Part shown: one piece after another, positions 6,207-64,000 of the stretch
Layout of the letters: each line of letters opens with the position of its first letter
Position numbering within the stretch: the stretch's first letter is position 1
Assembly: GCA_029339195.1 (NCBI GenBank)
Contig: JAPTJF010000025.1
Coordinates: 124,001-188,000 of the forward strand
Source of the DNA: Micractinium sp. NFX-FRZ
Lineage: Eukaryota > Chlorophyta > Trebouxiophyceae > Chlorellales > Chlorellaceae
DNA length: 64,000 bases
Direction of reading: 5' to 3'
Notes under the pieces: generated by a model
The model's database searches: none
The model's input: only the letters and a program-made list of their open reading frames with translations
Told to the model about the DNA's origin: nothing
Translations under genes and position numbers: made by a program

Positions 6207-7418
6207 ATGAGCGGCGAGCCTTCTACCAGCAGCGCGGCGGCAGCAGTGGCAGGAGCGGACCCTAGCAGCAGCGGTGACTCCGTGAAAGTGGGAGAGGAGC
6301 GCAAGGTGGGACGCCCGCTGCGATGCCCGCCTGTTGGCGACAGGCGGCAACTGCTGGCGGCGGCGGCAGCGGCACCGACCCTCTTTCACGTCCGCTGCCT
6401 CCCCCCTTCCGCCTGCAGGGAAACTGCGTGGTCAAGTTCGATGCCCTCTGGTTCTGCTACTGTGAGCCAGCCCGCCAGCCCGCCAGGCTGTCGCTGCATG
6501 CTTCCGCTGGGCAGCGGAAGCGGCATCCGGGCAGGCAATTTGTCCTGCGGCTTGGACTGCCTGCACGCTCGGTCAGTGCGTCCCAGCTGTCCACCGGCCC
6601 TTGCGGTTCAACCTGCTTCAAATTGCCTGTCGTGCAGCCCCCGCCTACCAGCTCCGAGAGTACTACATCAATGGCACCGTGGACGACTGCTCGCAAAAGT
6701 GGACCGAGTTCTGGGACTGCCTCAAGCGCAAGACGAGCAAGTACAAGGACGAGGTGGGTGCTGGCACAAGAGGTCCCCAATGCTAATATATATATATATA
6801 TATATATCAGGCATCTGTTCCTAGCCAGCGCGGCTTGACCGCGAGGAGCTGGCCCCAGCCCACGCCTGCAAGAACGTAGCCTTTGCTTTTCCCTTTGGCG
6901 GCTGGGGAAGGGAGGGTCACGGTGGGTGTTGAAGGGAGGTAAGGGCAGTGCCAGCGCAGGAGTCGGTGTCCGTCTCCCTGGTGGCGGCGCGCTGTGCGGG
7001 GGGATGGCTCGTGCTGGGGCGGGAGTGGTACCCTTCAAATTCGTCCACGCCCCCGTCTTGATGCGCCGACAAAACCCTACCGGGGCACTTCCTCAGTCAC
7101 CAACCGCCCTGCCCACTTCCCACCCCACCTACCCACGAGCCCACCCTCTGTGCAGGTGCTGGCCGCAGATGCAGGGAACTGTTACCACCCGTAGCCTTCT
7201 GACCACTCTTCCCACTGCACTCCCTGCGTGCCCGCCCACCCTCCGTGCAGGTGTTGGCAGCAGATGCAGAGCAGCGGCACCCCCTGTGGGACATCCGCAC
7301 CCACTCGGAGGCCCAGGAGTTCTGGCAGCGCGAGTTTGGGCACCTGGCTGGGGAGGGCCCGCCGGCAGCGGGCCCAGCAGACGGGGAGCACCACAGCGGG
7401 CGCGCCACGCTGGTGTGA
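6207..7418 (+). CDS. DUF3128 / EMI1-like twin-CX9C protein
   Basis: Small protein of 141 aa in four exons: 6207-6305, 6419-6461, 6638-6753, 7251-7418. The core carries two CX9C pairs, CVVKFDALWFC and CSQKWTEFWDC, 18 residues apart, with the intervening YQLREYYINGT typical of DUF3128. Twin CX9C proteins are generally imported into the mitochondrial intermembrane space by the Mia40 oxidative relay, so that location is inferred. The N terminus is Ser/Ala-rich and probably disordered. The last intron holds a decoy copy of the final acceptor near 7141-7176; its use would truncate the protein within about 12 codons. A TGTAA motif lies 73 bp past the stop. Molecular function in algae is unknown. Confidence 0.85.
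6784..6810 (+). repeat. (TA)n microsatellite
   Basis: A run of about eleven TA dinucleotides at the start of the third intron of the DUF3128 gene, unusual in such GC-rich surroundings. It is simple sequence only. Confidence 0.9.
7139..7176 (+). repeat. Intronic echo of the last DUF3128 acceptor and exon start
   Basis: The segment around 7141-7176 (CTGTGCAG followed by GTGCTGGCCGCAGATGCAG) matches the true junction at 7235-7270 (CCGTGCAG, GTGTTGGCAGCAGATGCAG) at most positions. It keeps the AG acceptor and upstream pyrimidine context. Splicing here would read VLAADAGNCYHP and then stop. Confidence 0.85.
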
Positions 7419-7490
7419 CGGCTTGGGGCTGCTGCCGGCGGTGTAGTTGCCATGTGTGCATGTGCGGAAAGAGCGCATGTGTTGGCTCAA

Positions 7491-7495
7491 TGTAA
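7491..7495 (+). terminator. TGTAA polyadenylation motif for the DUF3128 gene
   Basis: A TGTAA pentamer, the usual chlorophyte polyadenylation signal, lies 73 bp after the TGA at 7416-7418. Assignment is by position and known algal consensus. Confidence 0.6.
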
Positions 7496-8007: not shown

Positions 8008-11000
8008 TCACATTTTAAACTGGATCACGCACTCCACGCTGTCGCCAGCTGGCGCGCCAGCTGGCGCCGTCAGCTCAAAGCGGAGCGCCGCCTGGGCGCC
8101 GTCGTAAATGAACGGCACCGGCTGGCCCGCCAGCGACACGGCCATGGGCTGGTGCGAGGCGTAGCACAGCAGGCTGCCGGCGGCGCCAGCGCCCCGCAGG
8201 CTCAGGGCCGCCCGGGCGGGCTGCACCTCGTAGCCGTCGTCGGAGTGTCCGCCCGCCAGGGAGCAGCTGCAGCGGGGCAGGCACAGCACGCACGTGGCAG
8301 GGCTGCCTGTGGGTTGGATGGTACATCTGGTTGGGGGGTGCTTCCATTTTGGCCTAAGCATCACAAGCACACCGTGGTTTGGACTGCCTGCCACTCCACC
8401 CAGCAGCGCCCACCACTGCCACTGGTGCCACCCCTGCCCACCTGAGCACCGCGCCGCCCGCGTTGAGCAGGGAGGTCAGACCGATGGGCGCAAACAGCAC
8501 GCCGCCTGCCTCGGCCACGGGGCTGAGAGTGAAGATGTCGGAGCCGCCGCCGCCTGCCAGGGTCACCGCCACGCTGTCACCCGCCCCCAGCAGCCTCAGC
8601 TCCTGCCCGGAAGAAGAAGGAAGGCAGATGGCGGCGGCATAAAGTGGCAGCTTCACGAAATGAGGCTCCAAGCGGCAGCGTGAAGCCAACCAGGCGCGTG
8701 CCTCTGCCACATCTGCACGCATACCGCTGAGGTGCTGCGGTGCATCGCCCGCCTCTGCTGCCTGCCACCCCACCGGCCCATGCTCCCCTCCTGCCCTCAC
8801 ATGACATGCATGCACACTTGAACGCACACACAATCCACTTGGGAGTCCCACCTGGGTGCTGTCGATGTACGCAGCATACAGCTCAGCAGCGCCAGCCAGC
8901 GCTGGCACGTCTGCCGGGCCCACCGCTGCTGTGAGCGCGGGGGGCGCCTCCTCGTGGGTATGGAACCGGCGGCGGTGGCGGTCAAAGGCAGAGCCCTGGA
9001 TGTTGAAGGCTGCCACGACACAGGTGTAGTCGTTGGCATTCCAGACCTGGCCGGGGGGTCGCGGCGGTGAGGGCGGGGCGGTGAGGTCATTTGGCGCATG
9101 GATGGGCGGGCGGAAGCGTTTCGGGGAAAGGGATGGTCCAAGGGCAGGCACACGGGCAGGCAGATGCAGAGGCAGCACGTACCGGTGGGCACATGCAAAC
9201 AGCTGAGCGCTACCGCTGCGCGGCTGGGCATGACCGAAACGAGGGCCCCTACCCACCTTGAGTGCGGTGGTGCCATCGCGGCTGACATCAGCGAAGAGGC
9301 ACTCGACCGTGGGGCGGCCTGGCAGGCGGCAGCGCAGCACTGCACGAGGGGATGAAGGCCAACCAGCCAGGCAGGCAGGCAAAAGAGAGTGGGTAGGCAG
9401 CATAAAGCAGCGCCTTGCTCACGCCGTGCCCGCTCGTCCGCAGCGCCCCCTAGCCCACTGGCACCCTGTGCCCACGTGGGTGTCCGACAGGCCTGCCTCC
9501 TCCCGCAGGCAAGCAAGCGCCGGCACCGACTCACCCGACCCGTCGGGCAGCACCAGGCGGCGCAGCAGCGAGAAGTCGTGGCGGCCGGGGCGGTCGGACA
9601 CATACACTGGCCCTCCTGCAGCAATGCCAGGTAGAGCCATACTGATGGAATGAGCATACAGATAGCACAGCAGACGACAATTGGGGTGGCCTAGGCGGTC
9701 GGACACATACACTGGCCCTCCTGCAGCAACGCCAGGTAGAGCCATACTGATGGAATGAGCATACAGAGAGCACAGCAGAGGACAATTGGGGTGGCCGGGG
9801 CGGTCGGACACATACACTGGCCCTCCTGCAGCAGTAAGGACAGGGCAGGGCAGGGCGCTGTTGGGCAGGGCAGGGGGCAGGGCACAGTGAGCGTTCATAG
9901 CACCGCTCACACAGCGCCCAACCAAGTCACGTCGGGTCACTCACCGCTGACGGCGCGGGCAGTGGCGTGCAGCAGCGCCTTCTCGTGCTGGCTGTGGAAC
10001 ATGTCTGTTGTTGTGGATGTGGGGAAGGGACAGGGTGGTGGTGATGGTCAGCAGGGACAGAAAGCCAGGAGGGGCCAGCGGGGGGTGTTTGGGGACAGCT
10101 GGCTTGCAGGATCATGGTGTGCACATCGGACAAGCCCAAGCTGCTCAAGTGGGCCTGATCTTCGTGACATTGCACGCCCTCCTGCCAGGCTCCTGATTAA
10201 GCCAAGACAAGCCTAGCTCAAACCTGCCTTCCCAAGCCTCTCCTCCTCCCGCATGACCCAGCTCAGCTCAGGCCCAACCTAAACCGGTGCTGGCCCTCAC
10301 CCCAGTCAGGGATGACCAGCGCGCCAAAGAAGAGGGAGTTGTAGGAACAGTTGGCAATGTGCGCCTGTGTGCAGGAAACGCGGCACGCAAGGTGTGGAGA
10401 AGTTGTCAGTCACAGGGGTGGGGAGATGAGGTGTGGACAAGGAGGCTCGTGGTGGGCCACACCGGCAAGGAGAGGGCCAGGCAGGGGAGAGTGAGGCGGG
10501 ACGTGCAAACATGCGCGAATCACAGGAGGCTGCTGGTCCCTCTGAGCAAGGCTGACGCCACACTGCACACCGCCCCGGCTGGCCGCTCAACCGGATTTCC
10601 CGCCGGGAGCAGCACACCTGGTGGGAGGCTGGGTTTGTGGGGTAAAAGTCGTCGGACACACGTGCCAGGTTGGTGTCCTCCATGCTGCAGGTAGGGGCAA
10701 GGCAGGGCAGGGCAGGGCAGGCACACAGGGGGGCAGGTGGGCACATAGAACAGGAAAGCAAAGAGCGAGGGAACTGCACGCCCATTACAGCTGCATGCGG
10801 CCAACTGGCAGCCGCCTCGCGTGGCACCCATACACAAGCATAATGTTACGCCTACACTGGCCTCGCCATAAGAGGTTTGTGCGCTCACCGGTAGATGTCC
10901 TCGGTGCTGTGGCACATGCAGTTGATGAGCTGGTTCCCCGGGAAGTGGCGGCGTGCCGAGGCCTCCAGGCTGGCGTGGTACCGTGCCGCCAGCGCGGCCC

Positions 11001-14000
11001 CGCCGCCCTGCCCGGCCCCGCTGCCCAGCAGGCCCGTGGTGCTCTGGACGTCCACCTGGAGGGGCGGGCATGCGAGGGGCATGTGAAGAGAGGGCAAGTG
11101 CAGACAGGGTGGGAAGAGGGGGTGGGCAGATGGGGGCATATGCAGAGGCGGTGGGCAGAGGGGGTGGGCAGGGATGTAGGCATAGGGAAGGTGTGGTGTG
11201 TGAAGAGGGGGTTGGCAGAGATGTGGGCATAGGAGATGGTAAGTGAAGACGGGTGGGCAGATGACGACATGCATAGTGGGTGGGCAGATACGTAGGCATA
11301 GGAGAGGCGTGTGAAGAGGGGGTGGGCAGGGGAGGGACCACGGACATGAGCAGGTGAGGAGGTGCGGCGAGGTGCAGGAAGCTGGCAGGGGACAGCGGGG
11401 AGTGGACACAGCGGCAGCGCAGGGTGTACATCTTTAGCCCATCTTCTCAACTGATCCCATACCTACTAACCCACATGCCCCAGCCTGCCATGGCTGCCCA
11501 CCTTGACTCCGTCGATGCCGCAGCTGGCCAGGTAGGCGTGCATGTCGTTGTGGAGGGCACAAGGGTCCTCCGGCAGGGCCACACCGCTGCAGGGAGAGCG
11601 GCAGTTTGTTGCAGGTGTCATAAGCATGAGGTCATACAGGTGGCAAGAGTCGGTGCGCTGGCGCCTGTTCGCCTGTGCGGATGCAGATTTTGCTCTGGCG
11701 GAGGCATAGGACCAGCACCACCAGCACCAGATTGCATGCAGCAGGAGTGGCCCGACCTGAGCACCGGCTGCACCCACGCCACTGCTGGGTCCACGCCGAG
11801 CATGCCGGTCGTCGGTGTGGGCAGCACCAGGCTGGGCTGCAAGTGGGCAGGCGCACGCAAGCGCGGGTGAGTGCTTCTTAGATTTATGGGGGCATCAAGT
11901 CAGGCAGTTTTGTGCACACGCTGCGGCAGTAACCGCCCGCTCTCCAGTTGCAAGCAAGCTCCAGCCCGCTGCAGCTCCCAAAGAAGCCCCCGCCCCGCCG
12001 CCCTGCCTGACGTCTGCCCCACCTGAGTGCCAAAGACACCCACGCCCCTCCCCTTGTACTGCCCCCTCCCCACCTTGTACCGCTCCATCTCTGCCTCCCC
12101 CAGTCCGATGCCGCCCCAAAAGCCAAACATGGCATGCCATGCAAACACGTAGCGCAGGCCGTGCTGCTGCTTGAGGGCTGCCACCACCGCCGCCAGGTCA
12201 CCACCGCCGCTCTGCACACAGAGGGAGGGAGGCAGGGGCGCTGGGAGTGAGCAAGACCACTATGAGAGTAGGATTTGTGGGCGGACTGAGACTGATCCCA
12301 GGCATCGCGCCCCACCCACCCACTCCAGCTGAAAGTGACAGGCTTCTGCTGCCGGAACAGCAGCAGGTGGCATGTGCTGGCTTTGCTCACGTTGAGGGGC
12401 TGCTCTGGGCCGGCGGTGGGTGTTGAGAACTTGGCGTTGGCGCGGACAGACACCAGGCGGCGGGTGTGGTCTGCAGTGGGTGCGAAGGGGAGTGGGGATG
12501 CAGGTGCGCAGGCCGGGTGCATGAGCGTAAATGCGTGGGCGCTACGGCAACCGAGCCAGTATCAGGCAGGCGGGGGAGCAGCAGGCGGGGGAGCAGCAGG
12601 CAGGGGCGCCCGCTACAGGACATGTTGTGACACGCTCAACTACGCCAAAGCTCGACCCGCCACACCCCTGCATAGCAAAGCTGGTCCCGTCACAACCTAA
12701 GATATGAAAGCTGCCCCGCCTGTGCCCAAACCAGCGTGCCTGAGACGGAGGCGTAGAAGCTCAGCAGCGGGCGGCGCATCAGGCGGGAGGTGGCCAGCGC
12801 CGAGAAGATGCGCATCCGCCAGTGCTGGGCGGGCGTGGCCTCCAGCACTGCGAGCAGTAGGCAGTGGCAGAGTCAATCAACAGGGAGCAGTCGACACTTG
12901 ATATCATTTGACAGCAGGGCAGAGGGCAGGCGGGAGGGGCCGGCCAGGTGGGCACGGTGCACTGGCGGGTTGCACACACACGTGCGGCACAGGGCTCTGG
13001 CCCTGGCAGCCTCCCACGCCGCCACTCAAACCCAGCAGCACCCAGCTCACTCTCTCGGCAGGTGTTGAAGAACGCCGACTCCAGGCGGCGCAAGGATGCG
13101 CCCACCACGCCTGTCAGCGCAGCGTAGGCAGCGCATGCCCAGGCCGCCAGCGTGCCAAGCAGGCCACCACTGGCGCTGCTGCTGGTGGTGCTGCTGCTGC
13201 TGCTCCTGGCAGCGATGCCACTGGTGCCCTCGCGCTGGCCGTCCGCGCCATCCTGCGCTGCTGGCTGTGTTGCTGCCCCTTGCTGTTGCGCTTGCTCTGC
13301 TTGGATCTGGTGCATTGCATGCAGGGTCTCATCCATCTGAGGGGACCAGAAGAGGAGGAAAGGGAGGAGGGAGCGGAAGAAACTGAAGACGCTCCGGACG
13401 AGTGGGTGGTGAAGGACGGGTGAGTGGGTGCTACATGGAAGTGGTCCCCTGGGCACAGGCACAGGCAGGCAGGCGGGCAGACCGGCCAGCATGCCAGCCA
13501 GGACAAGCAGCCCCCCAGCACCCCCCAGGCCTGAGCCGCACAAGTCCCTCACGTGGTTGTCTGGTCCGCTGAGCATCCCTGCTGCCGCCTCCTCCACCTC
13601 GTGCACAGCGCTGCCAATCCCCACGCCTGGCCCGGTGCCTGCAGAGTGCGGGCAGCCCGCCGCGGCTGCAAGGCAGGGTGGGGGGCGGGGATGGTCGTTA
13701 CCAAGGGCGCATCAAGACCCTCTGCCGGGCTGGGCGCTGCGCAGCGGCAGCACTCTGCCATGGCACCAGTGCCTAGCGGCCGACCAAACTCTGCCGTCCA
13801 CATCTGTGCGCTGCCCACCCTGCCAGCTTTGCCTGGCCGGTTTTGGGAGCAGCTCTGGCCCACCAAACTCACCCGCCTGGCGGTACTGCTCGTCCACATC
13901 TGTGCGCTGCCAGCCGTCGTCGATAATCAGCAGCCTGGGGGGCGCCCCTCCCTCCGCCAAGCTCTTCAGCCCCTTCTGGATGCCGGCAGCAGACACCTGC

Positions 14001-17497: not shown

Positions 17498-20400
17498 TTA
17501 GGTGACTGTGCGTCCGTAGGCGATGCCGGCTATGTAGAGGTCCTTGGCCCACTTCTCCTTCACATGCTCTGCACCAGGCAGAGGCAGACGAGTGGAAATC
17601 GTCAGGATGGAGGAACGGAGGAGGGCGAGAAGGTTGCGCGCACGCAGGGAGGCCAAGCCGGGGCGGGGTGTGTGTGAGGGAGGAGGGGCCGGCAACACTG
17701 CAGCAGAGCACATCCTGCCGTTCAGCCTCTCCTCGCACCTCCCTCTTCCTCTTCATCATCCCCAAGGGCCTCTGCAGATGACATCGCTGCATCCCAGCCC
17801 AACAGCACAGCACAGCACAGCGCGGCACAGCGCACCTGAGGGGAAGGTGCTGGTGCGCAGCGTCTCCTGCGTCTCATCCGACATGGCGCGCCGCGGGATG
17901 GAGAGCACCAGGGCGCACTGCACACGGGAGGGGAGGGTGCATGAATTGTATGATGGGTGAAAGGGTTTGGGAGAACACAGGCTAGGATGGACGGCACCAG
18001 GGCACACTGCGCCAGGGGAGAGGGGAGGGGACGATATGGGGTCAGGGCACCGAATCTCTGAGTGGACGCAAAGGCAGAACAGGGCGGGGGTGGGTGCAGC
18101 TCAGCAATCCTAAGCGTCCACCCACAAAGCTAGGCCTCGAGCAGAGCAGCTCCCGTCCGCGGCACTGCTGGCACCAGCGACCCAGCACAGGCAGCACATA
18201 GCCGCCGAGCCCAAAGTCCCCACGCCTGCTCAGCCATGGATGCCAGCGCATTGGTGCAGTACATCTCTGAGCCACCGCCCACACAGCGCACGACATGGCC
18301 CCTGCCACCCCCGCACCTTGCCGGGCAGGGATGCCAGCGCGTGGATGCAGTACGTCCCAGTAACACAGCACACAGCACACACAGCCAACACCACGTGATG
18401 CCTGCCACCCCCGCACCTGGTCGGGCGTGGATGCCAGCGCGGTGATGCGGTACCCCCCGTCCCACCGCTTGTGGATGCCCTCGCTGGGGTACTGGAAGTC
18501 CAGCTCCACCACCTGGTCCAAGTACCCAGCACCCCGGCTCATCACCACGGCCCACTGCAGACAGAAGAGGGGGGGGAGGGGCGCAGGTGCTCACATGAGG
18601 CAGCTGGATAGGTGCAGGGGGGTGCTGACAGCAAGGAGCACCTCTGGTGGAGGTGCAGATTGCTGTGCGGCAAACAAGCGGAGCAAGAGGGGCGGGGCCT
18701 GCCGGGGGAAAGGGGAGAGATGCAGGGTGAAGCAGGGCGTGGCAGGTGCCTCCACCTTGCACACCCAGACGCGCATGCCCCGAAGCCAGAACAGGCGGCG
18801 GCCAGATAGCCAGGTGGGGAGCTGTCTGCGCTTGCACCACCTACAGCACTACAGCACACAGCCCCGGTGGGGAGGCCCACCTGCGTGCCGCTGGTGGCCA
18901 TGGCTGTCACGTGGAACGCCTCCCGCCACTTCTTCTTGATCCACTCAAAGGGGAAGGAGTCTGCGGTGCATGGGGGGCGGAGGGGGCGGGGGGGCGAGCG
19001 GGCGGGTGAGCGGGGGGAGGGGCAAGTCGGTGAGCAGGCAGGTGAGCAGGGAGAGGGCGGCACTCCGGCTGTGGAAGGCGGCAGCCGAGGGCAGGCTCAG
19101 TACGCTGGCGCGGACCAGACTATAATCCGCTCTGTACCGTGGCATGCACACATGTCGATGTGTGCCGTGCTGACGCTCACCTGATACCTTGTAACTCTGC
19201 TGCGTGCGCTTGGTCCCCTCGCGCCCCACCCCAGCCTGAAACCCCCGCTCTTCAGCACGCCTCATCATACCACACCACATGCAAATCCCCGAAACACACG
19301 GGTCACATCATCGTTCTACCAATGCAAACCCCCGAACCACAAGGGTCACATGCATGCCTGCGCCTGCGCCTCACCCGACACCTTGTAGCTCTGCTGCGTG
19401 AACTTGGTGCCCTTGCTCATCACCACCAGGCTACTCATGTTGGTGCTGCCCGCAATGGCTGCAGGGGGCGGGCGGGGGTGGGGGGGCGGGGGAGCGAGCG
19501 GTTGCAGCAGCGGGCAATGTTGGCCGTCTAAGGCAGGCAGGGGCAGCGGGCAGTGAGCGGGCGGTGGCGTGGCGTCCCACTTGCCACGGCACTGGGAACA
19601 TGGAGCAGCTGCTGGCAGGGGGCCGCTGCCACGTGCCCTACGGGAACCCAAACAACACTGCAATCCTGACAAATGCAGGAACCGCAGTCACACTGCTTCA
19701 TGGCCCACCAGCCAGCACAGCCAGAGAAACAAGCTAATGGGCAAGCTAATCCAACTGAATACTGGAAACTGTAATTCACCCCGCCCACCCGTGATGTAGA
19801 AGCCCTTGTCCCACTGCTCCATGATCCAGTCCTTGGGCAGGAAGGAGCGCTGCGCCACGCGGTACACCTGCAGCGGGGGGGAAGCGCCGGGGGGGCGCAG
19901 CGTTCGAGTGATGGTGAGGATGCAGCGAGGTGGCAGGAAGCGCTGCGTCACACGGTACACTATAGCCAGGCCAGCCGCCCGCCCCGCTGCTGGCTGAGGC
20001 ACAGCAACCAGGAAAGCAGGCACAGCAGCAGCCAGGCCGGCCGGCCCCTGCACCCACCCACCTGCTGGCTGAAGCCGGTGCTGTCCTTGCACGAGGCAAG
20101 CAGCACAGCAAGGCCAGATGCCAGCTGCCCCCATCACCCGCCCCCGCCCCCGCCCGCCCACCTGCTGGCTGAAGCCGGTGCCTGCGTCCATGATGATTGC
20201 CCACAGGTCGCCGCAGGCGCAGACGGAGGAGATGTAGAGGCCGTCGTCAAAGCCCTTGGAGACGTGCACATCCAGACGGTGGTTGCTCACGTTGTAGTGG
20301 TAGCTGCAAAGGAACAGGGGCAATCGGGTGGGCGGATCAGGGCTGGTGAGGGCTATATGCTCACAAATGCAAGGGCAGATGCGGGGGAGCAAACCAAGAG

Positions 20401-50023: not shown

Positions 50024-53000
50024 CTACATCACGACCGCCGCCTCTGCCTCTGTGCTGTTGCCCAGCCCTAGCAGCGAGGCCAGGGCAGCGGGTGCAAAGG
50101 CTACCGTGTCGGAGGCCGCATCTGTGCGCTGCAAATGGAGCGGCACAAACCGCAGCGTGCCACGCTGCGCATCGCCCTTGACCTGCACCGTGGCGGTCCA
50201 CTCCTCATAAGGCCCCAGCCGCTCCCCGGCATGGTTCAAAACCTCCAGAGGGTCCGGGGGGTCTTTTAGTGAAGCCAGCACATCGGCTGCGCTGCGCTTG
50301 CCTGCCGCACCGGGCTTGCCTGCTGCGCTGGCCTTGCCGCCGCTGCCACCTGCCACAGCGCCCGCCGCTGTGTCTGCTGCCCCGCCTGCGCCCTGGCCTC
50401 CCGCCTTCCAGGCTGCTGGCAGCTTGGGGCGCCGTTCAAGCTCCAGCTGCAGCTGAAGCAGTGTGGTGGCCTCTGCCTCTGTTTCCAGCAGCCGCAGCTG
50501 CACGTCGTGCGCCACCCGCATGCCGTGCAGCTGCCCGCCGCTGGCAGGCGCTGCCCGGAAAAGCCGGCTGGACACAATCTGCCGCAGCAGCTTCTCATAT
50601 GACTGCAGAAGAACAGGAGGGGGTGCAGGGAAGGGGCAGGGGGGATGGGGGCAGTGTGGAACGTGGAGTGGGCGGGGTGGGACAGACAGTGGCATGGTGG
50701 GACCATAGACTCTCGAGGCACAGGCAAGCGGCAGGGCCGCATGCCAGCCGTTGCACTAGCAGCACGCCGGCACTTTGGTTGCCGCCACTGGTGCCACACC
50801 AAGCCAGGCTCCATTTGAGTCCGACAGTTGCTGGTACAACCAGTCAGGCTCTGCCCTCCCTCACCTGCAAATGAGACGGGTGCACCAACTTCAGGGGCCA
50901 GGGCCCCGTCAGCACGCCAGGCGCATCAGAGGGCAGCGCCACCGCTCCGCCTGCCGCTGCCGCTGCCCCCGCGCCGGGCTGCGGCCCATCGCGCGGCAGC
51001 AGCTCAATCGCGCCCTCGCTCACACGGCGCACACGCAGGCGGCGGCTGCCCGTGCCGTCGCTGGCAGGGGCGGCCAGCAGGGCGGCACCCCGCGGCGAGA
51101 AGTCGAGCTCAAGTGCCACCAAGCCCAAAGACTGGTCAGGGTGGCTGCTGTTCCAATGCGCCTGCGCGGCCGCCTGCACGCCGGCCAGCAGGTGCAGCAC
51201 GCCCAACGGCTGCTGCTGTGCCATGTCAGCGCTGACGATGCCTGCGGGCAGCGCAGGGCAGCGCACGGCGTGCGGAGCGCGTAGGGAGGGCAGTGAGGCG
51301 TCCAGAGGCAGGGGCAGCCCAGGGGGGGCAGAAGCTGCTGCACAGTCGGCAGTGCTGCCCTCTACAGAAGAGGGCAGACGTGTGGCATTGACCAGCACGC
51401 ACGCTGGCAGGCAGGCAGGCCGGCAGGCAGGTGGGAGGGCGGCCGTTCTGAGGACAAACAGCACAAACACTAACAATTGGCACATGCCAGCTTGGTTACT
51501 TCTGCTTGCAGCCCGCAAAACCCAGAGAGGCTGATGGGGCGGATGTCAACGGCCGCTCGGCGCAGGGAGGCGAGCGGACACAGGGCAAAGCAGAAGGCCT
51601 GCTGCTCACTCTTCCCTTTGCTCACCTGCAAACTCGGAGAGGCCGATGGGAGGCAGGTCCAGGCCCCGGCGCAGGCGCACGGCGCATGCCCCCCGCACCA
51701 CCACCATGGCACCCTCCCGCAGCAGCACGCGCTTCACCACGCCGCTGTCGCTGGCGTGCGGCAGGAAGAGCTGTGGGCAGGCGGAGGGGCGGACAGCAGA
51801 ATGGCGGGTGCTTGTTTTGAACTGAACAGTCCTGGGCTGACAGGGGGCATGCAGGCATCCGCAAACCTGCTGCATCACAAGCAGGCAGGCAGGCAGGCAG
51901 GCAGGCAAGCAGGCGGCAACAGGAGTCGGTGCATGCTGATTGGAACAGCGTCCCACCTGCAGTGCGGTTGGCTGGGTCAGGTACACATCAAGGGGCCCCT
52001 CCAAAGCAAAGTCCGGCAGCAGGCTGCCCCGGCTGACAGGGGCCAGCCAGTTGCGGTCCAGGGCATCCCAGTCATGCCCAGGCAGCAGGCCGCCCTGCAA
52101 AGGGAGGGGTGAGAACGCAAGCTGTGGGAACACACGCAAGCATGGTGCCTGGGTAATGCCGCCGGTGCATGGCCATCAGAGCAGGGGCGGTAGCGAAGAG
52201 GGAGCCGTAGGGGGCGGGGCAGTTGTGAGGTGGGCCGGTTTTGTTGTGAGCAGGGTGAAGATGCGGGCGACAGGCGGCCAGGTGGCGGCGATCCAGGGCT
52301 GGCGCTGTGCCGAGGGGACAGCCGGGGTGCTTGAACGCGGGCCAGAAAGATCGAACACCGCTGAAAAGCTCAATCATGCTCACCAACACTCACCTCAGCT
52401 GAGCCCAAGACATTTGCCAGGCGCTGCCAGTCGGGCTCGCTCTGCGTCAGAGAGGTCACATTTGTGGAGGCCTGCTTTAACGGCATTGCAGCTGGGCAGA
52501 CGCAGGCCAGCAGAACTATGCAGGCAATGCGAGGTGCCCGCACCTACGCAGTCCCCAAATGTGCTCCCTGCTCCCCCCCAACCACCTCGTCCCTCCCTGC
52601 TGCTTCTTTCGCATCCCCTGCCTGGACCAACCACACATGCTTCCTGCCGCTCCGCCCCCTCTACCACACCACATGCATCACTTTGGCGCCACTCAATGGC
52701 AACCCAGATGCTTCAATCACCAACCCCACTTGCACTTGCATAACTCAACCCCACGAGCACCATATTCCTCAACACACGTGCACGCACATCCGCTCAAACC
52801 CCGTGCACCCACCTGCACCATGTACGAATACTTCTGCCCATCCACCTCCAAGCCCAGGGACACGGACTGGCCGTGCCAGATGCGCAGCTCCTGCATCAGT
52901 GCAGCGAAGAGGCGCGGCGATGAGGGAGAATTGAGGCGGTGAGGAGGCTTCCGCAAGGTGTTCAAATCTACAAGCTGGCAGGCAACAAGTGGCGGCCAGC

Positions 53001-54290: not shown

Positions 54291-57200
54291 ATGACGCAGC
54301 TGCAGCAGCTGCAGGAGCAGGAGGCGGCGCCGCCGGCACGCTGCGTCACGCTGCCCACCGGAGGCACGTACACTCTGGCAAACGCACACGTGCCCACCGG
54401 CTGCATCCAGGGCAGCACCCCAGGCTCTGTGAATGTGTGCGTAGACAACCTAGCGCAGGTGGACATCGAGGTCGTGGGCGGCCGGGTGGCGGCGCTGCGC
54501 CCGGCCTTGGCAGCAGCAGCAGCTGGCGGCCGCGCGGCCCGGCGGGGCAGCACCCACGTTGCTGGCCCCGTGATCGACCTGCGAGGCAAGATGGTGCTGC
54601 CCACCTTTGCCGACCTGCACACGCATATCGGTGAGGCAGCAACGTGGGGACGATAGGGGTGCAGGGCGGCAGGCATTGGCACAGTCGCGCTCCTTTGTGG
54701 GCCGCTCCTGGCGCTGCCAGGCAGGGTGCATGTTGCTGCCAAGGTTCCCTGCTGCTGCTGCTGCTTTAGGTTGCCATGTTGCAATGCCCGCACTCCCCAT
54801 CTCCCGCTCTAACCCCAGCCGTACCTTCCACTCCGCATTCCCTTGTCCACTGCGCCTCGAGCAGACAAGGGGCACACCACAGAACGCAGCCGCAACCCCA
54901 ACGGCAGCCTGAGCGGCGCGGACCGCAGCACGGCTCGGGACGCCGCCTTCTGGGACGAGGCGGACGTCTACCGGCGCATGGACTTTAGCCTGCGCTGCGC
55001 CTACGCCCACGGCACCTCTGCGCTGCGCACCCACCTCATCAACATGACACCCAAGCAGACGCAGCTCACCTGGCCCGTGTTCTCCTGTCTCAAGCAGAAG
55101 TGGGCCGGCAAGGTGTGCAGGCGCTTGGGTGGGCGGGAGGGCAGGGGCTGGTGGCAGGCTGCCTGACAGGCAGGGGGGTGCAGGATGCAGGGTGGGTTGC
55201 GGGCTTCAGGACCAGAGGGGAAGCCTTTTCAGGTTCCTCTGCGTGCTTGCTCAGGCTTGATAGGCTGTGGTCAGCTCTGCGGGCAGCATTGCACTCCTCC
55301 CGCCCCGTCTTGATAGCCTGTGGTCAGCTCTGCAGGCAGCATTGCACTCCTCCCGCCCCGTCTTCCCTACCTGGTTCTACGCCCTGCCAGTTGCCACGCC
55401 ACGGATGCCCCACCCTGCGCCTGACCTCCATGCCTGCGGGCAGTGCCTGTGGCTGCAATGAGGCAGCAGCAGCAGCAGCAGCAGCAGCCGCCCCGCTGGC
55501 TCCTGCTTGCTCAAGTCCCGCTCTCCCTCTCCTGGTTCCCTTCCCGACTGCAGGTCGAGCTGCAGGCGGTCTCACTAGTGGTGCTGTCCTTCTTCAGGGA
55601 CGAGGCAGCAGCCACAGCGCTGGCAGATCTGGTGGCGGCACACGGAGGCATCCTAGGGGCAGCGGTGTGCTGTGCAGAAAAGGGGGGAGACCCCTCCGAT
55701 GACTGGACAACCTGTGAGGCGGACCGGGACGTGCTGCTAGACCGGTGAGCGTAGTTGTGTTGCATCAGATGGGGTTCATGGCAGATGGGCTCAGCCTGGC
55801 AGGGATGGGCAAGTGTGGGCTGGGCTGTTGGGGGGAGGCGGGGAGGAGGGTGGTGACCTGCCGGCTGATGGGACCACTTGCAAGGCCGGCCGAGATGCGC
55901 TGCTGGACCGGCGGGGCGCGGCTGGGCTGCGTGGCGAGTTTGTTCTTGGATGCAGCACCTTGCAACTGGTCATGAAGCATAACCCCCTCAGCTTCTGATT
56001 GGTGGTGTCTGCAGCATCTTCCGGCTGGCAAAGGAGCGCGACCTGGACCTGGACTTCCACACGGACGAAAACGGGAACGAGTTGGCGCGGGGGCTGCGGT
56101 ACGTGGCCCAGAAAGCGGAGCAGTACGACTACCAGGGGCGCGTGGTCTGCGGGCACTGCTGGTGAGTGAGCAAATGGGAGGGCACCTGTTGAGGTGTGGG
56201 GGTGGGGTTGTGCGATGCTGGGAACAAGCGGAAAAAAGCGGAGCATGGTGCTTACGGCTTATTGGGCACTGGGCGCGTCAGCGTGAGTGATAGCAAGGAA
56301 GAGCAGGGGGCAGGGGGCGGGTCCATTGGTTCACCCCTCCCAAGCGCTCGCCGCCTGGGCAGCCCACTGCAGCTCTGCTCCCCCGCCCGCCCTCTCAGCT
56401 GGCAACTGCGCGTTGAGGCACCTTCGCTCCTCCCTTCAAGCAGCTGCTCACATCTCCTCCGGGCTGCCCCTCATGCACCTCCTCTGGGCTCTTCCCCCAC
56501 CCTGTGCCTTGCAGCTCCCTGGCCTTCCAGCCCCCTGCTGAGCTGGCACTGACTCTGGAGGCGGCAAAGCGTGGGGGCGTCACAGTCGTGAGCTTGCCGC
56601 TTGTGAACCAGTGGACACAGGACCGCTCGCACGAGGGAGGGCGGACGCCGCGCTGGCGGGGGGTCACGCTGCTGCACGAGCTGCGGGCGGTGAGCAGGGA
56701 GGGGAGAGGGCAGGGCAGGGGCCAGAAAGGAGGGCAGCTGAGTAGGGGCAGTTGTGTAGGGGCATCATGCTGCCGCGGCAGGTGCGCTGGGTGGCAGAGA
56801 GTGCTGTGGCAGCGGGCTGCTGCGGGATTGTCTCGCCCTTGCCCCACTTTGCTGCTGCAGCCCCCCCTCTTTGGCCGCGCCTCCCTCTCGTCCCGCCCAC
56901 CCTGCGCCCTGGCAGCCGCGCACCGCCCGGCCGCTGCCTGCACCCGTTTTACAATCCCACACCGCTGCCTTTCGTGCCGCTGCCTTTCGTGCACAATGCC
57001 GTGCTCGCCCTCCACCCTGCCCCCCACCCTGCCCCCTCCTCACCCTCCCCCCGCTCAGGCCGGCATCCCCACTGCCATCTCCTCCGACAATGTGCGGGAC
57101 CAGTTCTACGCGTATGGCGACCTGGACTGCCTGGAGGTGTTCACTCAGGTGGGTTGAATGTGGGGGTAGGTTGAGCGCGTCCAGCAGGTGACTCTTTGGG

Positions 57201-58514
57201 GTCTTTCGGGCACGCAGGTTGATGCAGGGGTACGTGTAGTGTGCCTGGCAGGTGGCTCTTAGGGGTCTTTCGGGCATGCAGGTTGATGCAGGGGTACATG
57301 TAGTGTGCCTGGCAGGTGGCTCCAGAGGCACTTCACACGCAGGTGGCTCAAGGGATGTGTTAGTGTCGGGCATGTGGCCCCACCCCCACCCCCACCTCTC
57401 CCACACATGGCGGGCTTGCAAGGTGGGTGGGTTCTGAACCCGGCCCCTGACGTACCTGCCATTCAGACGTGCCTAAGTTGCTGTTTTCAACATGTCCAAC
57501 CATACCTCCCTGCAGAGCTGCCGCATGGCCCACCTGGACAGACCCTACGGCGACTGGCCGCAGGCGGTGACCAGCATCCCAGGTGCGCCTCCTGCCTCCC
57601 CGCCGCGCTCGCGCCGCCTGCCTGCATGCATGCCTGCATGCCCGCCCCCGCTTGTCCACTTACCTGTGCACTCCCTGTGCGCTGCCCCTGCCTGCGCGCG
57701 CCAGTCCCCTCCCGGCCCACCCCTCTTTCCCCCTGCATACTCAACCGACTGTGTGGTCTCCCTCTGCGCCTCACCCGCTTGCTTGCCCTCCCCTCCCCGC
57801 CCTCCCCGCCCTCCCCGCCACCGCTCCTGCAGCCGACGCGATGCACCTGCCGCAGCACGGCCGCATCGGCGTGGGTCTGCCCGCCAACTTTGTGGTCTTC
57901 AGGGGGCGCCGCTACTCCGAGCTGCTGTCCCGCCCGCAGTACGACCGAGTGGTGGTGCGGGACGGCGTACCGCTGGACGTCTTCCCTCCCAGCTATGAGG
58001 AGCTGGACTACGTGCCCGCCGCCATCAAGTCGGGTGGGTGTATGGGTTTGAGTCCAGGGTGAAGGGGAGTGCATGCCGCTGGACACCTTGCCTCCGAGCG
58101 ATGTGTGTGTGTGGTGAAAACAGCGAGGTGTTGCGGGGAGTCTGCCAGCCACCCTCCCACTGGGTGTGCCTCCCACCACCACCGCTCCTCCCATGTTTGA
58201 TTTGAGGTGCAGGCGAGGTGCCGGTTGTGGATGTGAGCTACCAGCCAGATGGGCAGGCCGTGGTGCGGACCTCCATTGGCAGCCCCCTGGGCAAGAAGGG
58301 GTGCGCCCTGAGCAGCGCGGCTGCCGAGGGCGGCGGTGCGACGGCAGCCAATGGCCACCACGGCAGCGGAAGCGTGCTGCTGCCCACCAGCGCCCGCGGC
58401 GGCTACCACCTGCAGCTCCTCCTGCTGCTCTCGTGCTTTGTGGCCGCGCTGGCGACGCTGGCGGGGCCGAGCGCACTCACCGCTGCGCTGGGGCTGCCCT
58501 GGGCGGCCTCTTGA
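54291..58514 (+). CDS. Cytosine-deaminase-like amidohydrolase with C-terminal membrane segment
   Basis: Metal-dependent amidohydrolase of the CodA-like cytosine deaminase group; substrate not proven. Nine exons (54291-54630, 54865-55112, 55554-55744, 56015-56161, 56515-56689, 57059-57148, 57516-57582, 57833-58033, 58213-58514) give 586 aa with consistent phases. Metal and substrate residues: DLHTHIDKGHTTERSRN (H110, H112), LDFHTDENGNE (H275), CGHCCSLA (H307) and TAISSDNVRDQFYAYGD (D377). The N-terminal third builds the usual beta-sandwich start (VIDLRGKMVLPTFADLHTH). Unusually, the last exon adds a tail ending YHLQLLLLLSCFVAALATLA and a second hydrophobic stretch to the stop, a possible tail anchor not expected in this soluble family. 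The start is the first Met in frame before TLPTGGTYTLANAHV. Introns contain two exon echoes and two tandem repeats. Confidence 0.88.
55258..55364 (+). repeat. 53-bp tandem duplication in a deaminase intron
   Basis: The unit TGATAG(G/C)CTGTGGTCAGCTC through CTCCCGCCCCGTCT occurs twice, period 53 bp, with three or four differences, in the intron between exons 2 and 3. Confidence 0.9.
55866..55917 (+). repeat. Intronic echo of deaminase exon 3 3' end
   Basis: GATGGGACCACTTGCAAGGC then CGGCCGAGATGCGCTGCTGG copies the exon end (55697-55744): DGTTCKAGRDALLDR against DDWTTCEADRDVLLDR. Confidence 0.87.
57185..57324 (+). repeat. 64-bp tandem repeat in a deaminase intron
   Basis: Two full units starting at 57185 and 57249 (CAGGTG.CTCTT, GGGTCTTTCGGGC, GCAGGTTGATGCAGGGGTAC) and a partial third at 57313. 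Each unit carries CAGGTG and GCAGGTT, that is, splice-like AG/GT. Confidence 0.9.
58066..58107 (+). repeat. Intronic echo of deaminase exon 8
   Basis: GCATGCCGCTGGACACCTTG then CCTCCGAGCGATG at 58070-58102 resembles exon-8 bases GCGTACCGCTGGACGTCTTC, CCTCCCAGCTATG (57965-57997): MPLDTLPPSD against VPLDVFPPSY. It lies just after the exon's donor. Confidence 0.78.
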
Positions 58515-59637: not shown

Positions 59638-59876
59638 AAGCCAAAACAGCTACTGCTACACATATGCTTGGTACAGCGGTAGGCAAGGGGACAAGGGGTG
59701 TGCAGGGGGGTTTCTCTTCTCGTGGTTGCGTGTGTGTCGCGGCACGTGCCTCGTACGTTGGAACTGGGCATATGTCGGCAGCAGGGACGCTCTGGCGGGC
59801 GGAGCAACCGGGCACCAACGCGGGGGGCGGCATGTTGCCCCCCTAAAATGAAATGCCCATGAAATGCCACGCCAGC

Positions 59877-62398
59877 TCACGCCAGGCTCTTGGCGTACAG
59901 CGCGTAGAAGTTGCTGCACGAGGGAGGGAGACGAGGGGGCAGGGGGAGAGAGTGGGAGGGGTGAGCACACGGCGCAACACAGCAGGTGAGGCAGCAGGAG
60001 ATCCATGGCGCACCCAGTGGCTGCTCCATTGCACGCGGGCGAAGCAGGCAGCGAGTGCAGCGCACGCCGACAACCAACAGCACGGCACACATCCGGCGCG
60101 GGGCTCACTATTGAGGTGTGCTCCATCAAAAAACAACAAAACAAGAAAGCTCACTAACAGGCCAGGGGTGTCCTCCATCAAAAACAACAAAGACAAAAAA
60201 GAAGCAAAGGCGCTCACTTGGCGGAGGCGTCCTCCAGGTGTGCGTTCAGGTTGGCAATGGGTCCCTGGCCGGTCACGATGGCCTGGACAAAGAAGCCGAG
60301 CATGGAGAGCATGGCGAGGCGGCCGTTCTTGATCTCCTTCACCTTGAGCTCGGCCAGGGTGTCGGGGTCGTCAGCCAGGCCCAGGGGGTCGAAGCTGCCG
60401 CCTGCGGGGGGAAGGGAGGTGCGGGGGAGGGGACGAGGCGCGAGGGGGAGGTGGGTGGATGAGGAGGAGGCGGGCCAGGGAGAGCAAGGCAGGCAGAGCT
60501 CGGGAGGCGAGAGTTGCTTCCACTCGGCGGGGCATGCAACAGCAGCACAGCACGACATCAACAGCACAGCATGGTACAGCAGTACAGCAGGGCTCACCGG
60601 GGTACACGGCAGCAGCAGCAGCAGCACAGCACAGCATGGTACAGCAGGGCAGTACAGGTGCTCACCGGGGTACACGGCATCCAGGTCGACGCCGGCGGGG
60701 CCGCCGTTGACGCGGTAGCCCTCAACGTACGACATCAGGATGACCTGCAGCCGTGGAAACAGAGGAGAAAAGTTCGCTACAACTGCTGGCTCGCGGCGGC
60801 AAGGAGACACAAGGCGGGCGCGTGCACATGCTGGCGTGCACCTTCAAGCTGGCCCCCGCCAGCGCACGCAAGCCTCTTCTCCCAGGCCTGTTCTTGCCCC
60901 CCGCCGCCCGGCCAGGCCGCGCGCGCCCCGGAAAGCAGGCAGCAGGCTCCCACCTGCACGATGAGCGTGGCCACAATGGACTTGGCGTTGATCAGGCCGG
61001 GGATGCCCAGGTACTGGATGCCGTCGTCGCCAAAGATCGAGGCGCCGGCGTTGAACCACGCAACGTGGTTGGTGCCGTCCAGCAGCTCGGGCACCACGCA
61101 GCCCAGCGCGCCAAGCATGGCTGCAGGGGGGGGAGGGGGCGAGGGGGAGGGGGACAGGCGGTCAGCACAGCTTGCTTGGGTCCCGAGCAGCCTCACGCCA
61201 CCTGATTGCTGATGGGCTGCACGGCCGCCAGTCCCACTTTCGAGGGGAAGAAAGGCAGAAAGAAAGAACAAGGCAGCACCCTGGCGGAGCGTGCGCTCAC
61301 CCCAGCGGGCGTGGATGACCTCCACCTCCCGGTAGCGGGCAAAGGTCTGGGGGTCGGCGGACAGGCCAGAGGTGTCCCAGCCGTAGTCACCGGGGAACTC
61401 GCCTGCACATCACAAGAGGATTGTGTGGCGGGAAGGGAAGAGTTGAGGGGGAGGGAGGGGGAGGCGGGGTGCGGGCATGTGTGGCGGGAGGATGGGCAGG
61501 AAGCTGAGCTGGCGGGCGAGGCGGCACTCGAGGGTGCACATGAGCCCAAGCAGCAGGCAGCGGGCCCGCGCCTGATGTCCATTCAATGTGCTGGCGGGAT
61601 GGCTGGTGCCACTGCCGCTGCACGTCACAAAGCCATGTGAGCGGCGGGGCGTAGCGGCACGCACCGGTGAGGTAGGCGGGGGTGATGCGGTCGCTGTAGG
61701 GGCCCAGGAACTTGGGGCGGTCGGGGCCGTACTGCACACACCAAGGGCGGCATGAAAACAGGATTGAAAGGGGTTGAATGGGGAAGGGCTTCAAGGACTG
61801 GTTCATTGGCTGGCAGCAGGGCCGTCGCAGTATGGCGGGCGGCGGCGGACCACCGTAGACCGAGATAAGGGCGGGATAGTGCGGGGATGCGGAGGGCGGG
61901 AGGCGCTGAATCCGCACGGCTGCGCCGCTGACCTCACACCCTGATTGCTGCTGCAATGAAAAAACAACTGCTCCAACTCCCCAGCCAGGGAAACTGCCCG
62001 CAAGCTGCGCAGCGAGGGCGGCGGCTGCTCCCACAGTTGCGTTATGCAGCCGCTGCTCACCCAGCTGATCTTGCTGCCGCTGCTCTTCTTGGTCTTGGAG
62101 GCGGGGGCGGCCTTCTTGACAGTCTTGGACTGGGTGCCCTTCTTGGTGGCAGTGCCGGCCTTGCTCTTGCCAAAGAGGGCCTCGGTGCGCTGCAAGCGAG
62201 AAAGGGGGCGGGAGCAGGGGAGGGGGTGCTGAGGGGTGCAGGGTGCGTCATCCCGCTTGCCTGGGCCCCCTCAACTGCGGCGCTGGCTCGTATCCACTGC
62301 CCATACGCCAACGGAGCCCACAAACGCGGCGGCAGAGGCTGGCAGGCCGCGAGCGAGCACTGCTACTGGCTGCGCACCATGGCCATGGTGGTCGCCAT
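59877..62398 (-). CDS. Light-harvesting complex II chlorophyll a/b-binding protein (LHCBM-like)
   Basis: Thylakoid antenna protein that binds chlorophyll a/b and xanthophylls and feeds photosystem II. Eight exons (62398-62378, 62189-62061, 61731-61665, 61402-61301, 61120-60954, 60744-60666, 60401-60218, 59913-59877) give 261 aa with consistent phases. Landmarks: [12 protein letters not shown] (the WYxxxR trimerisation motif), [13 protein letters not shown], helix [16 protein letters not shown], middle helix [34 protein letters not shown], and helix [21 protein letters not shown]. These fit major LHCII rather than minor CP26 or CP29. The first exon is a 21-bp microexon (MATTMAM), inferred because exon 2 starts at a clean CTTGCAG acceptor with no ATG. 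The N-terminal region is Lys-rich ([14 protein letters not shown]). The C terminus ends [10 protein letters not shown], shorter than the usual ...FVPG tail. Confidence 0.93.
60118..60218 (-). repeat. Duplicated intron segment in the last LHC intron
   Basis: CTCCATCAAAAA followed by ACAACAAA and an A-rich run ending in GCTCACT occurs twice, at about 60119-60156 and 60170-60217. The second copy leads into the true donor (GCGCTCAC read on plus). Confidence 0.75.
60570..60615 (-). repeat. Intronic echo of LHC exon 6 donor junction
   Basis: CTCACCGGGGTACACGGCA at 60593-60611 duplicates the true donor junction at 60661-60679, together with the flanking ATGGTACAGCAG and CAGTACAG blocks (period about 68 bp). 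The copied donor GTGAG is intact. Confidence 0.88.
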
Positions 62399-63577
62399 CT
62401 TTGCTGGGTTTGCTGAACTGAACGACTGGGTGACCACTCCCTGAGTATAGGCTCGGAGAAATGGTGCCTGTGGGGGCTCAGAACGCGGGCTTTCACAGCC
62501 GGCCACGCAGATTCTCTCATCCTCCACGTGGCATTTTCGGGATGAAAGCCTGCTCCGACCCGGCGGCCTGATTTGGTCTGTGGCTCGGGCGACAATCCCT
62601 CTTCTCGGATGTCGGCGCAGTCTCTGCGACACGCCTGGGCGGCTAGCAGCCTGTCCCCACGCGTGTGGGCCCCTGAAGCTCTGCAGCTCCCCTGGTGCCA
62701 GCAGCAGCCTGGCAGGGGTATCTATGCTCAGCACAGGAAGCGTTGCAGGAAGTTGGGGAGGGGTGGCGAGCATGCTGCACAGCTCTGAAACCTAGCAGGG
62801 CAGCAGGGCGGGCGGTGCGGGCAACGGCCGCAAGGTGTGGCTGATCGCCCTATGCCACCTGTCCACTGCGCCTCCTGAGATCCACTGCGCCAGATGTTAT
62901 GATGACTCCAGGAGGCGGCATGCACCCAGCAGGGGTGTTTCTGTGATGGGCACGGGCTCAGCAAAGACGAGCACCCACAATGCTGACTGCCCTGGGGCGT
63001 GCCTCTGCACATAGAGCCTGCGTGATGCCGGCCTGTTCAGACCAACTTGAGAGCGGAGCATGCATGCAACAGCAGTGTGCTGCCTTGTCCGGTGCCCTTC
63101 CGGTTCACTGTCACCTAGTAAGCAGTACTGGGTCAGCAAGAGTGCGTGGCCGGGCAAGCAGTAGCGGTGGGGCGCGCTGCTGTGGCTGTGGCTAGCACAG
63201 CAAGCATTCCCATTGTATGAGACCTTGCCTTCCGCTGTGCTCCCAAGGCTTGGTGCGTGTGTTAGTACAGAGCGGTGCCAGAGGCGGCATGAGGGGAGCG
63301 CGAGAGTGTGGATGAAAGCGAGCAGCAGACAGACAGTGGAGTAGGCCCGAACCAGAACAAAAGAGGTGGTGGCACAGTGCAAGCGTTGTTAGACAGACTT
63401 GGGTTAGGAACAAGTGGTACAGAAGCCGTGTGTGGCAAAGCCCAAGGGGACAGCACGAGGCCAAGCTAGCGCCTAGCTGTCCCGGCTTGGCAGGCGTCGT
63501 GCCTGCAAGGCCGGCTCAGCTTGAGGCGTCAAGGGCGGGCTAGAGCCGCAAGCCTGGGCCAGCTCAGCTCCAGCTGA
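62399..63577. other. Intergenic: LHC promoter and 3' region of the right-edge gene
   Basis: About 1.2 kb. The left portion upstream of the LHC start should contain its promoter; no canonical light-regulatory element could be assigned by eye. Around 62900-63480 GC drops and open frames are unconvincing, fitting a long 3' UTR of the right-edge gene. No TGTAA was found for that gene. Confidence 0.4.
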
Positions 63578-64000
63578 TCAGCTGAAGTCCCGGTCAGGGA
63601 AGAGCAGGGGCGCCACCAGCGTCCAGCAGTAGAGGCCCACAGTCACCCACTGGCTTGCCACCTTGACCCACACGCTCGTCCACCCCACGTTGATGAGGTA
63701 CTGCAGGGGCGGGAGGGAGGGAGGTGTGTTGCAGGAGTGAGGTGGTGAGGTGGAGCACTTAGCAGGGGGCAGAAGAGGGGATTCAAACACGTCCACCCCA
63801 CTTTGATGAGGTACTGCGGAAGAGCGAGGGAGCAGAGAAAGGGCAGGGTGCAGTTCGGGGTGTCCACAAGGGGCGCGGCGGCCAGGGGGCGAGCACGCGG
63901 CTGGAGCGGGTGCTGCTGCTGAGGCGGGCGTGGCTGAGCATTGAACAAGCCGCTGCTTGACCCAATATTCACCACAGCGCCAGCAGCGACGCAGCTCTGC
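63578..64000 (-). CDS. C-terminal exon of a membrane-protein gene, cut by the window edge
   Basis: The last exon (63700-63578, phase 0, acceptor CCCCTGCAG) encodes [34 protein letters not shown] and ends PDRDFS. This is one long hydrophobic, Trp-rich segment with a short charged tail, as at the end of a multi-pass membrane protein. The upstream intron contains an echo of the same acceptor and exon start at 63790-63820 (YLIKVGWT). Sequence from about 63900 to the edge may contain a further exon, but none could be fixed. I do not recognise the family. Confidence 0.6.
63788..63822 (-). repeat. Intronic echo of the right-edge gene's last acceptor
   Basis: CGTCCACCCCACTTTGATGA then GGTACTGCGG at 63790-63819 copies CGTCCACCCCACGTTGATGA, GGTACTGCAG at 63677-63706. 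The minus strand gives GCAG before TACCTCATCAAAGTGGGG, so an AG acceptor is preserved. Confidence 0.9.

Follow-up and report, generated by a model that had tools for sequence, protein, structure and literature searches.

Relation to known duplications of exon sequence

Repeated exon sequence within genes is known from several processes, and the elements described here, which we call echoes, have to be placed among them. An echo is a copy, in the same orientation, of the exon border of an intron that lies inside this very intron. Our analysis covers a window of 64,000 nucleotides (positions 124001-188000 of contig C25 in the 66.07-Mb assembly of Micractinium sp. NFX-FRZ, 838 contigs, GC content ~65%); the genus Micractinium is placed in the Chlorellaceae. 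A wider sample of 200 kb consists of one 10-kb stretch from each of the contigs C1-C20, and any genome-wide statement made below rests on this 200-kb sample out of 66 Mb.

In introns that arise from tandem arrays in human genes, which are reportedly spliced alternatively, tandem copies of splice-site regions are found within a gene as in echoes; the echoes look decayed. Tandem and mutually exclusive exons also repeat exon sequence within one gene, but there the whole exon is copied, whereas an echo comprises only the part adjacent to the border and is free of coding constraint. Tandem exon duplication was rejected as an account of the echoes because the copies are partial and their differences are spread equally over the three codon positions. 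Introners, like echoes, affect many introns of one genome; however, they form families across many genes, whereas an echo matches its own exon, and exons compared with the introns of other genes give almost nothing. Searches with two whole genes of the window, the kinase g3 and the fusion g7, gave only short matches beyond a paralogue of g3, among them a 33-bp simple-repeat stretch present at many places, with very common words ignored by the search; no allelic contig of either gene appeared. Intronic minisatellites, as the category is generally understood, share with echoes the presence of three to four copies at some loci, and short-period intron repeats occur here too, but echoes mostly sit at least 85 bp apart and usually consist of a single extra copy. 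Tandem genomic duplication of exon sequence containing AG/GT (the slash marking the border) is a recognised way in which introns are gained (PMC3443670, PMC2891723). As portrayed there, this process shares with echoes a short direct duplication involving exon sequence that is masked from the protein by splicing; yet a new intron of one unit arises inside an exon, its ends mirroring the flanks, whereas in echoes an existing intron grows and its border is copied. No description of border copies in algal introns was found in titles and abstract openings; the genome papers of Chlorella variabilis and of Micractinium conductrix and C. sorokiniana lay outside this scope, and a prior mention is possible.

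Occurrence of border echoes

Copies of exon borders inside introns are real, and they recur on other contigs. The evidence that is independent of any gene model comes from near-repeats 25-600 bp apart with a score of at least 22: the window contains 44 direct pairs, 1 inverted pair and 0 after local shuffling, with 1 direct pair at the distant range of 3000-3575 bp. The sample contains 199 direct, 8 inverted, 1 shuffled and 3 distant pairs. All 8 inverted repeats of the sample lie in a single stretch (L013, C11:50001-60000). The first-pass annotation of the window had described the copies as having the same orientation as the exon, which these counts bear out.

For the tests on introns, gene models were predicted ab initio with a hidden Markov gene finder self-trained on this genome. 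The trained splice signals are realistic (donor CAG/GTGAG, acceptor TGCAG/G), and the last training round comprised 490 introns with a median of 248 bp; short exons and micro-exons in these models are unreliable. In the echo test, an exon end of up to 100 bases was aligned to its own intron, with the reverse complement, a randomly drawn intron of another gene and a shuffled intron as controls. The final set contains 487 introns, 394 of which (94 from the window, 300 from the sample) fall within the length limits of the test. Without any editing of exons, 15/94 window introns and 33/300 sample introns reach a score of at least 20, whereas the controls yield no match in the window and, in the sample, one each for the reverse complement and the random intron and none for the shuffled intron. 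In this alignment of introns against their flanking exons, which had been proposed as a check, no control exceeds 1 match in either group on either side. At a score of at least 18, the count rises to 61/394 (15/94 and 46/300), with 3 reverse-complement matches and 1 other-gene match among the controls. These 61 introns hold 78 echoes, 44 at donors, distributed over 40 introns, and 34 at acceptors, distributed over 28; about one intron in six to seven thus bears at least one degraded copy of its own exon border.

A separate test restricted to the window used query segments that span the border (score of at least 18). It covered 111 introns, 108 of them at least 80 bp long, i.e. 216 sides, after three predicted exons inside copies (31477-31494, 35895-35909 and 36498-36602) had been deleted. 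An own-border copy in the same orientation is present in 22 introns of 8 genes, in line with the earlier statement of at least twenty introns in at least eight genes. The controls gave 2 matches for the reverse complement and 0 for introns of other genes; the latter comparison was left out wherever the random draw fell on an intron of the same gene, leaving fewer than 216 comparisons, and 12 exon bases were demanded of real matches, not of controls.

Anatomy and decay of the copies

The homology extends to 5 bp or less from the border in 29/44 donor-side and 27/34 acceptor-side echoes, and these 56 near-border copies cover 20-83 exon bases. As had been noted beforehand, the splice dinucleotide is often kept: GT in 19/29 donor-side and AG in 19/27 acceptor-side copies, together 38/56 (68%). 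The position of the copies relative to the true site, downstream for donors and upstream for acceptors, was likewise described correctly, but any copy sought within the intron must lie there. The similarity extends to the protein level; the peptide named in the first-pass annotation is encoded in the copy near 22668-22721 on the minus strand, with its counterpart in the exon.

Copy and exon differ at 194/1125, 204/1128 and 215/1130 sites of codon positions 1, 2 and 3, respectively (78 echoes), a total divergence of 613/3383 (18%). Retention of GT or AG in 38/56 copies is what two bases at this divergence would give under neutrality (0.82 squared). The copies decay like neutral debris, with no sign of coding use and no trace of selection on the decoy signal in either direction. 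Nevertheless, 16/29 donor-side and 15/27 acceptor-side copies (31/56) attain at least the 10th percentile of true-site scores, a level reached by only 0.54% and 0.36% of random intron positions, respectively. By their sequence, many copies thus look like usable splice sites and form a natural decoy set, as had been surmised.

The distance from copy to copy has a median of ~118 bp on both sides, with quartiles of ~104-139, and only 3/66 near-border copies are less than 85 bp apart. Loci with three or four copies exist (9560-9833 and 31349-31693), but the period of 65-110 bp that was ascribed to them does not hold, and the usual state is one extra copy. For the analysis of repeat clusters, a filter on 3-mer complexity proved too strict and was replaced by another one. 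By band counts, 10/80 border cases are less than 85 bp apart, as compared with 51/77 intron-only cases; counted as distinct introns, border cases number 7 below 85 bp and 56 at or above it, intron-only cases 36 and 19. A second class of repeats is intron-internal, has a short period (25-84 bp), is mostly of low complexity and occurs in 36/378 introns.

The proposal that echoes make introns grow is supported by their distribution. Echo-bearing introns have a median length of 342 bp vs 245 bp for the others, a difference of ~100 bp, and the echo rate climbs with intron length: none of the 47 introns of 80-150 bp has an echo, as compared with 21 of the 52 that measure 400 bp or more.

Origin of the echoes

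What we consider the probable explanation is ordinary short tandem duplication across a splice border, retained only if the outer site works and followed by decay. Short tandem duplications of tens to a few hundred bp would recur in the genes of a Micractinium-like alga. If such a unit straddles a splice border, the gene would survive as long as the spliceosome stays with the outer copy, i.e. the donor that comes first or the acceptor that comes last; the inner copy would persist within the intron as a non-coding remnant of the exon end, GT or AG included, and decay neutrally. Each pair would stem from one DNA event, with selection at splicing acting as a filter. The outer site is presumably the one in use, which homologous proteins appear to support for two genes only, the kinase g3 and the fusion g7 described below. 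Survival would further depend on the outer site retaining at least ~40 nt of adjacent intron; this need, together with ~20 exon bases for recognition, could give distances of ~85-135 bp without any special ruler. The interpretation as recurrent local tandem duplication with subsequent decay had already been offered, and the orientation, the distances, the neutral decay and the recurrence on other contigs all speak for it.

The filter is the part most directly addressed by simulation; in our simulations, duplications are placed uniformly, changes occur independently and the indel settings are of our own choice. Less than 40 nt of intron remain at the true site in only 5/66 copies (both sides), whereas the simulated donor-side share is 34-68% without a filter, depending on the length spectrum, and 2-4% with a 45-nt filter. 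In the simplest reading, the outer site must retain its own intron-side module to win. The idea of a fixed period was dropped, because the clustering at 85-135 bp is nearly matched by a falling length spectrum combined with the 45-nt filter (simulated median distance 127-134 vs 118 observed).

Several observations weigh against this explanation. Border cases outnumber intron-internal ones 70:26 at distances of at least 85 bp, while simulations with moderate or uniform ages give 0.86-1.41:1. The intron half of the duplicated unit is recognisable in 20/70 border cases, and the same ages predict 0.39-0.77; in a matched test of the intron half, the share is 36% of 56, against 54-73% with near-observed indels and 37-50% only with heavier indels. 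By identity class, it is 39/17/60% observed vs 66/85/97% simulated. Near-identical echoes are scarce (2% vs 12-16% under a constant rate). Predicted intergenic DNA of window and sample, up to 171 pieces, contains no repeats at a distance of at least 85 and a score of at least 18; the same criteria give 47 band counts in 437 introns. Fourfold sites differ barely more often than second codon positions (129/621 vs 204/1128), which requires strong synonymous constraint in the exons; GC content at third codon positions (GC3) is 0.90. An error-prone birth of the copies, prompted by the equal codon positions, is unneeded if synonymous sites are constrained in this way.

If old ages are set (0.25-0.30 changes per site), the ratio of border to internal cases under unbiased duplication spans 1.35-6.15, and the intron half stays visible in 0.15-0.53 of cases; the observed values of 2.69 and 0.29 lie inside these ranges. 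If most events are old, unbiased duplication can therefore suffice, in agreement with the scarcity of near-identical echoes; young copies collapsed in the assembly would make such echoes equally scarce. These old ages must be assumed for the fit, and the settings that fit have an exon identity of 0.78-0.83 and an aligned length of 51-56, vs 0.84 and 39 observed; no single setting reproduces all measures.

The same figures can be turned into an argument for true hot spots, with duplication coupled to exon borders or to splicing and transcription, e.g. through R-loops or pausing. Border-spanning duplications would then be several-fold commoner than intron-internal ones and almost absent from intergenic DNA, for which the ratio of 70:26 where moderate ages predict ~1, the empty intergenic pieces and the echoing of the same border at different distances in two paralogous kinase genes can be cited. 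However, older ages yield the observed ratio without a hot spot, and intron-internal repeats do exist (band counts of 26 at 85 bp or more and 51 below, in 19 and 36 distinct introns). Moreover, the predicted intergenic DNA is short and includes untranslated regions and promoters, and the gene model may call repeat-rich DNA intron. We regard hot spots coupled to borders, transcription or splicing as unlikely on balance, though as a serious alternative. An approximately tenfold border hot spot was rejected: it arose from labelling clusters by their best pair only, and a count per intron together with the simulations reduces it to 2-3x, or to none with old ages.

That echoes are kept by selection, either as regulated alternative exons or as decoys that tune splicing, seems highly improbable to us. 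It could be read from the 31/56 near-border copies that score like true sites, from an echo in the MtnA part of g7 with differences exclusively at third codon positions (7/7), and from intron halves that are more decayed than simple models predict. Yet the differences over all 78 echoes are equal at the three codon positions, the retention of GT or AG equals the neutral value, and distances are not enriched for multiples of three: among 35 high-complexity border clusters at 86-132 bp, remainders of 0, 1 and 2 occur 10, 13 and 12 times. The MtnA echo is one of two flagged among 78 and fails correction for multiple tests.

It is extremely improbable that the echoes are an artefact of chance similarity, falsely duplicated haplotypes or wrong gene models. 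The models are indeed ab initio and their shortest exons unreliable, but the controls are near zero, the annotation-free counts do not depend on the models, and the divergence of ~18% is far above what we would expect between haplotypes. Furthermore, g3 is 96% identical to, and colinear with, a Micractinium protein save for one exon and single-residue gaps, and g7 matches the solved MtnA and MtnK structures save for echo-derived inserts. Finally, we give almost no credence to the suggestion that the introns themselves were gained by tandem duplication of AG/GT exon sequence, the echoes being relics: although this route is established in the sources cited above, its signature (an intron end resembling the upstream exon end, or an intron start resembling the downstream exon start; 60-base ends, score of at least 16) is present in 0/394 introns with a random control of 0, and what the echoes retain is GT at donors and AG at acceptors.

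Echo-bearing genes of the window

Window proteins recognisable by Pfam are a raffinose synthase, an MtnA-MtnK fusion, an amidohydrolase, an EF-hand protein and an LHC protein; g3 is a MUT9/CK1-like kinase. All echoes of the window are listed in Table 1, the weakest cases being those at 58065-58103 and 60581-60611.

Eight introns of g3 carry echoes. Its closest relative is a protein of Micractinium sp. CCAP 211/92 (94%, or 96% in colinear alignment), and the model is colinear with four green-algal relatives save for the extra exon 17739-17771 and a few short gaps. This exon adds 11 residues without counterpart in the four relatives and lies outside every echo found; it is probably a false exon. 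Nearby, a 33-bp stretch of 10-bp repeats (17802-17834, CAGCACAGCG) matches ~30 other places in the genome (Tandem Repeats Finder, TRF).

A paralogue of g3 on contig C33, partly covered by the stretches L024-L026, shares exon stretches of 74-92% identity. Its covered introns contain one echo (score of at least 16), located at a border that is also echoed in g3, at a different distance. The paralogue echo scores 27 against its own exon and 15 against the window exon, the g3 echo scores about equally against the two exons (22 and 20), and the introns of the two genes show no match above background (13) at this border. An orthologous origin of the two echoes is disfavoured, because the introns are unmatched and the paralogue echo prefers its own exon. 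Independent origin is likely from these alignments; it suggests that the echoes postdate the separation of the two genes and that one border can be struck repeatedly.

The predicted gene g7 (29051-37289) fuses methylthioribose-1-phosphate isomerase (MtnA) and methylthioribose kinase (MtnK); exon 32329-32618 seems to contain the end of the former and the start of the latter. Against the solved homologues, the micro-exon 31477-31494 forms a clean 6-residue insert (4ldq) and the micro-exon 35895-35909 a clean 5-residue insert (2pyw), both lying in echoes, while exon 36498-36602, which overlaps an echo, contributes to a stretch of 47 query residues whose flanking aligned blocks are separated by 7 residues in 2pyw. 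Since g7 otherwise agrees with the solved MtnA and MtnK, the three echo-derived exons appear to be wrong predictions. The aligned exon part of the MtnA echo (31118-31198 vs 31236-31316) is the one with all differences at third codon positions; it may be a young or briefly constrained copy, a pattern that is not significant after allowing for 78 echoes.

Elsewhere in the window, the predicted genes 38810-40913 and 46110-48145 are related and lie in opposite orientation, with common stretches such as RHCTELCAA.EAL; the latter has a cysteine-rich tail which we take to be MYND-like.

Table 1. Echoes in the window, with the exon-border segment that each resembles (window positions; D, donor side; A, acceptor side).
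Echo	Strand	Copied segment	Side	Gene	Intron	Score	Identity	Remark
7141..7192	+	7236-7287	A	g1	6754-7250	30	0.79	
9665..9735	-	9560-9630	A	g2, raffinose synthase-like	9616-9944	48	0.89	TRF array 9583-9833
9770..9833	-	9560-9623	A	g2	9616-9944	46	0.86	second echo
13791..13815	-	13886-13911	D	g2	13639-13872	22		
18302..18369	-	18402-18468	D	g3, MUT9/CK1-like kinase	17918-18416	40	0.82	
18218..18278	-	18409-18468	D	g3	17918-18416	27	0.75	second echo
17985..18020	-	17896-17930	A	g3	17918-18416	22	0.86	
19176..19237	-	19370-19432	D	g3	18961-19374	37	0.82	
20053..20081	-	20153-20181	D	g3	19868-20161	27	0.97	
19975..20000	-	20150-20175	D	g3	19868-20161	20		weaker echo
19932..19960	-	19836-19867	A	g3	19868-20161	20	0.93	
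20810..20871	-	20698-20759	A	g3	20751-21010	38	0.81	
21488..21516	-	21586-21614	D	g3	21096-21595	23		
22291..22356	-	22422-22487	D	g3	22114-22414	28	0.71	
22777..22818	-	22950-22991	D	g3	22611-22949	22		same border echoed in C33 paralogue, other distance
22668..22721	-	22564-22619	A	g3	22611-22949	24	0.76	translated similarity to exon start
23813..23869	-	23706-23762	A	g3	23750-24220	24		
31118..31198	+	31236-31316	A	g7, MtnA-MtnK fusion	30835-31239	63	0.89	segment once in solved MtnA homologues
31461..31500	+	31349-31388	D	g7	31383-31876	32	0.90	echo 1; holds predicted micro-exon 31477-31494
31557..31596	+	31352-31391	D	g7	31383-31876	34	0.93	echo 2
31658..31693	+	31352-31388	D	g7	31383-31876	19	0.81	echo 3
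33016..33056	+	33244-33286	A	g7	32619-33257	21		
33123..33179	+	33243-33298	A	g7	32619-33257	19	0.70	
33438..33489	+	33347-33397	D	g7	33383-33820	37	0.94	
33582..33628	+	33347-33393	D	g7	33383-33820	35	0.87	second echo
35869..35916	+	35700-35747	D	g7	35741-36236	26		holds predicted micro-exon 35895-35909
36503..36554	+	36631-36682	A	g7	36392-36634	28		overlapped by predicted exon 36498-36602
43809..43835	+	43686-43712	D	g12, EF-hand	43722-44164	23		
44044..44099	+	44154-44208	A	g12	43722-44164	26	0.76	
51499..51566	-	51611-51675	D	g15	51242-51625	22	0.71	
55847..55911	+	55681-55745	D	g16, amidohydrolase	55745-56014	27	0.71	
58065..58103	+	57959-57997		g16	58034-58212	21		weak; source in exon 57833-58033; stops 36 bp before border
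60581..60611	-	60651-60679	D	g17, LHC	60402-60665	23		weak; 14 exon bases only

Implications

Each echo amounts to a natural experiment on splice choice, in which two similar sites lie ~110-120 nt apart and one is apparently ignored; the scarcity of cases with less than 40 nt provides a measure, drawn from sequence alone, of the length of adjoining intron that a functional site requires. If borders were hot spots after all, introns would owe most of their growth to copies of their own borders, and the standing population of decoys would be renewed. Echoes lengthen introns and can mislead gene finders, as the three echo-derived exons predicted in a single gene illustrate. The protein sets of such algae may hence hold spurious insertions.

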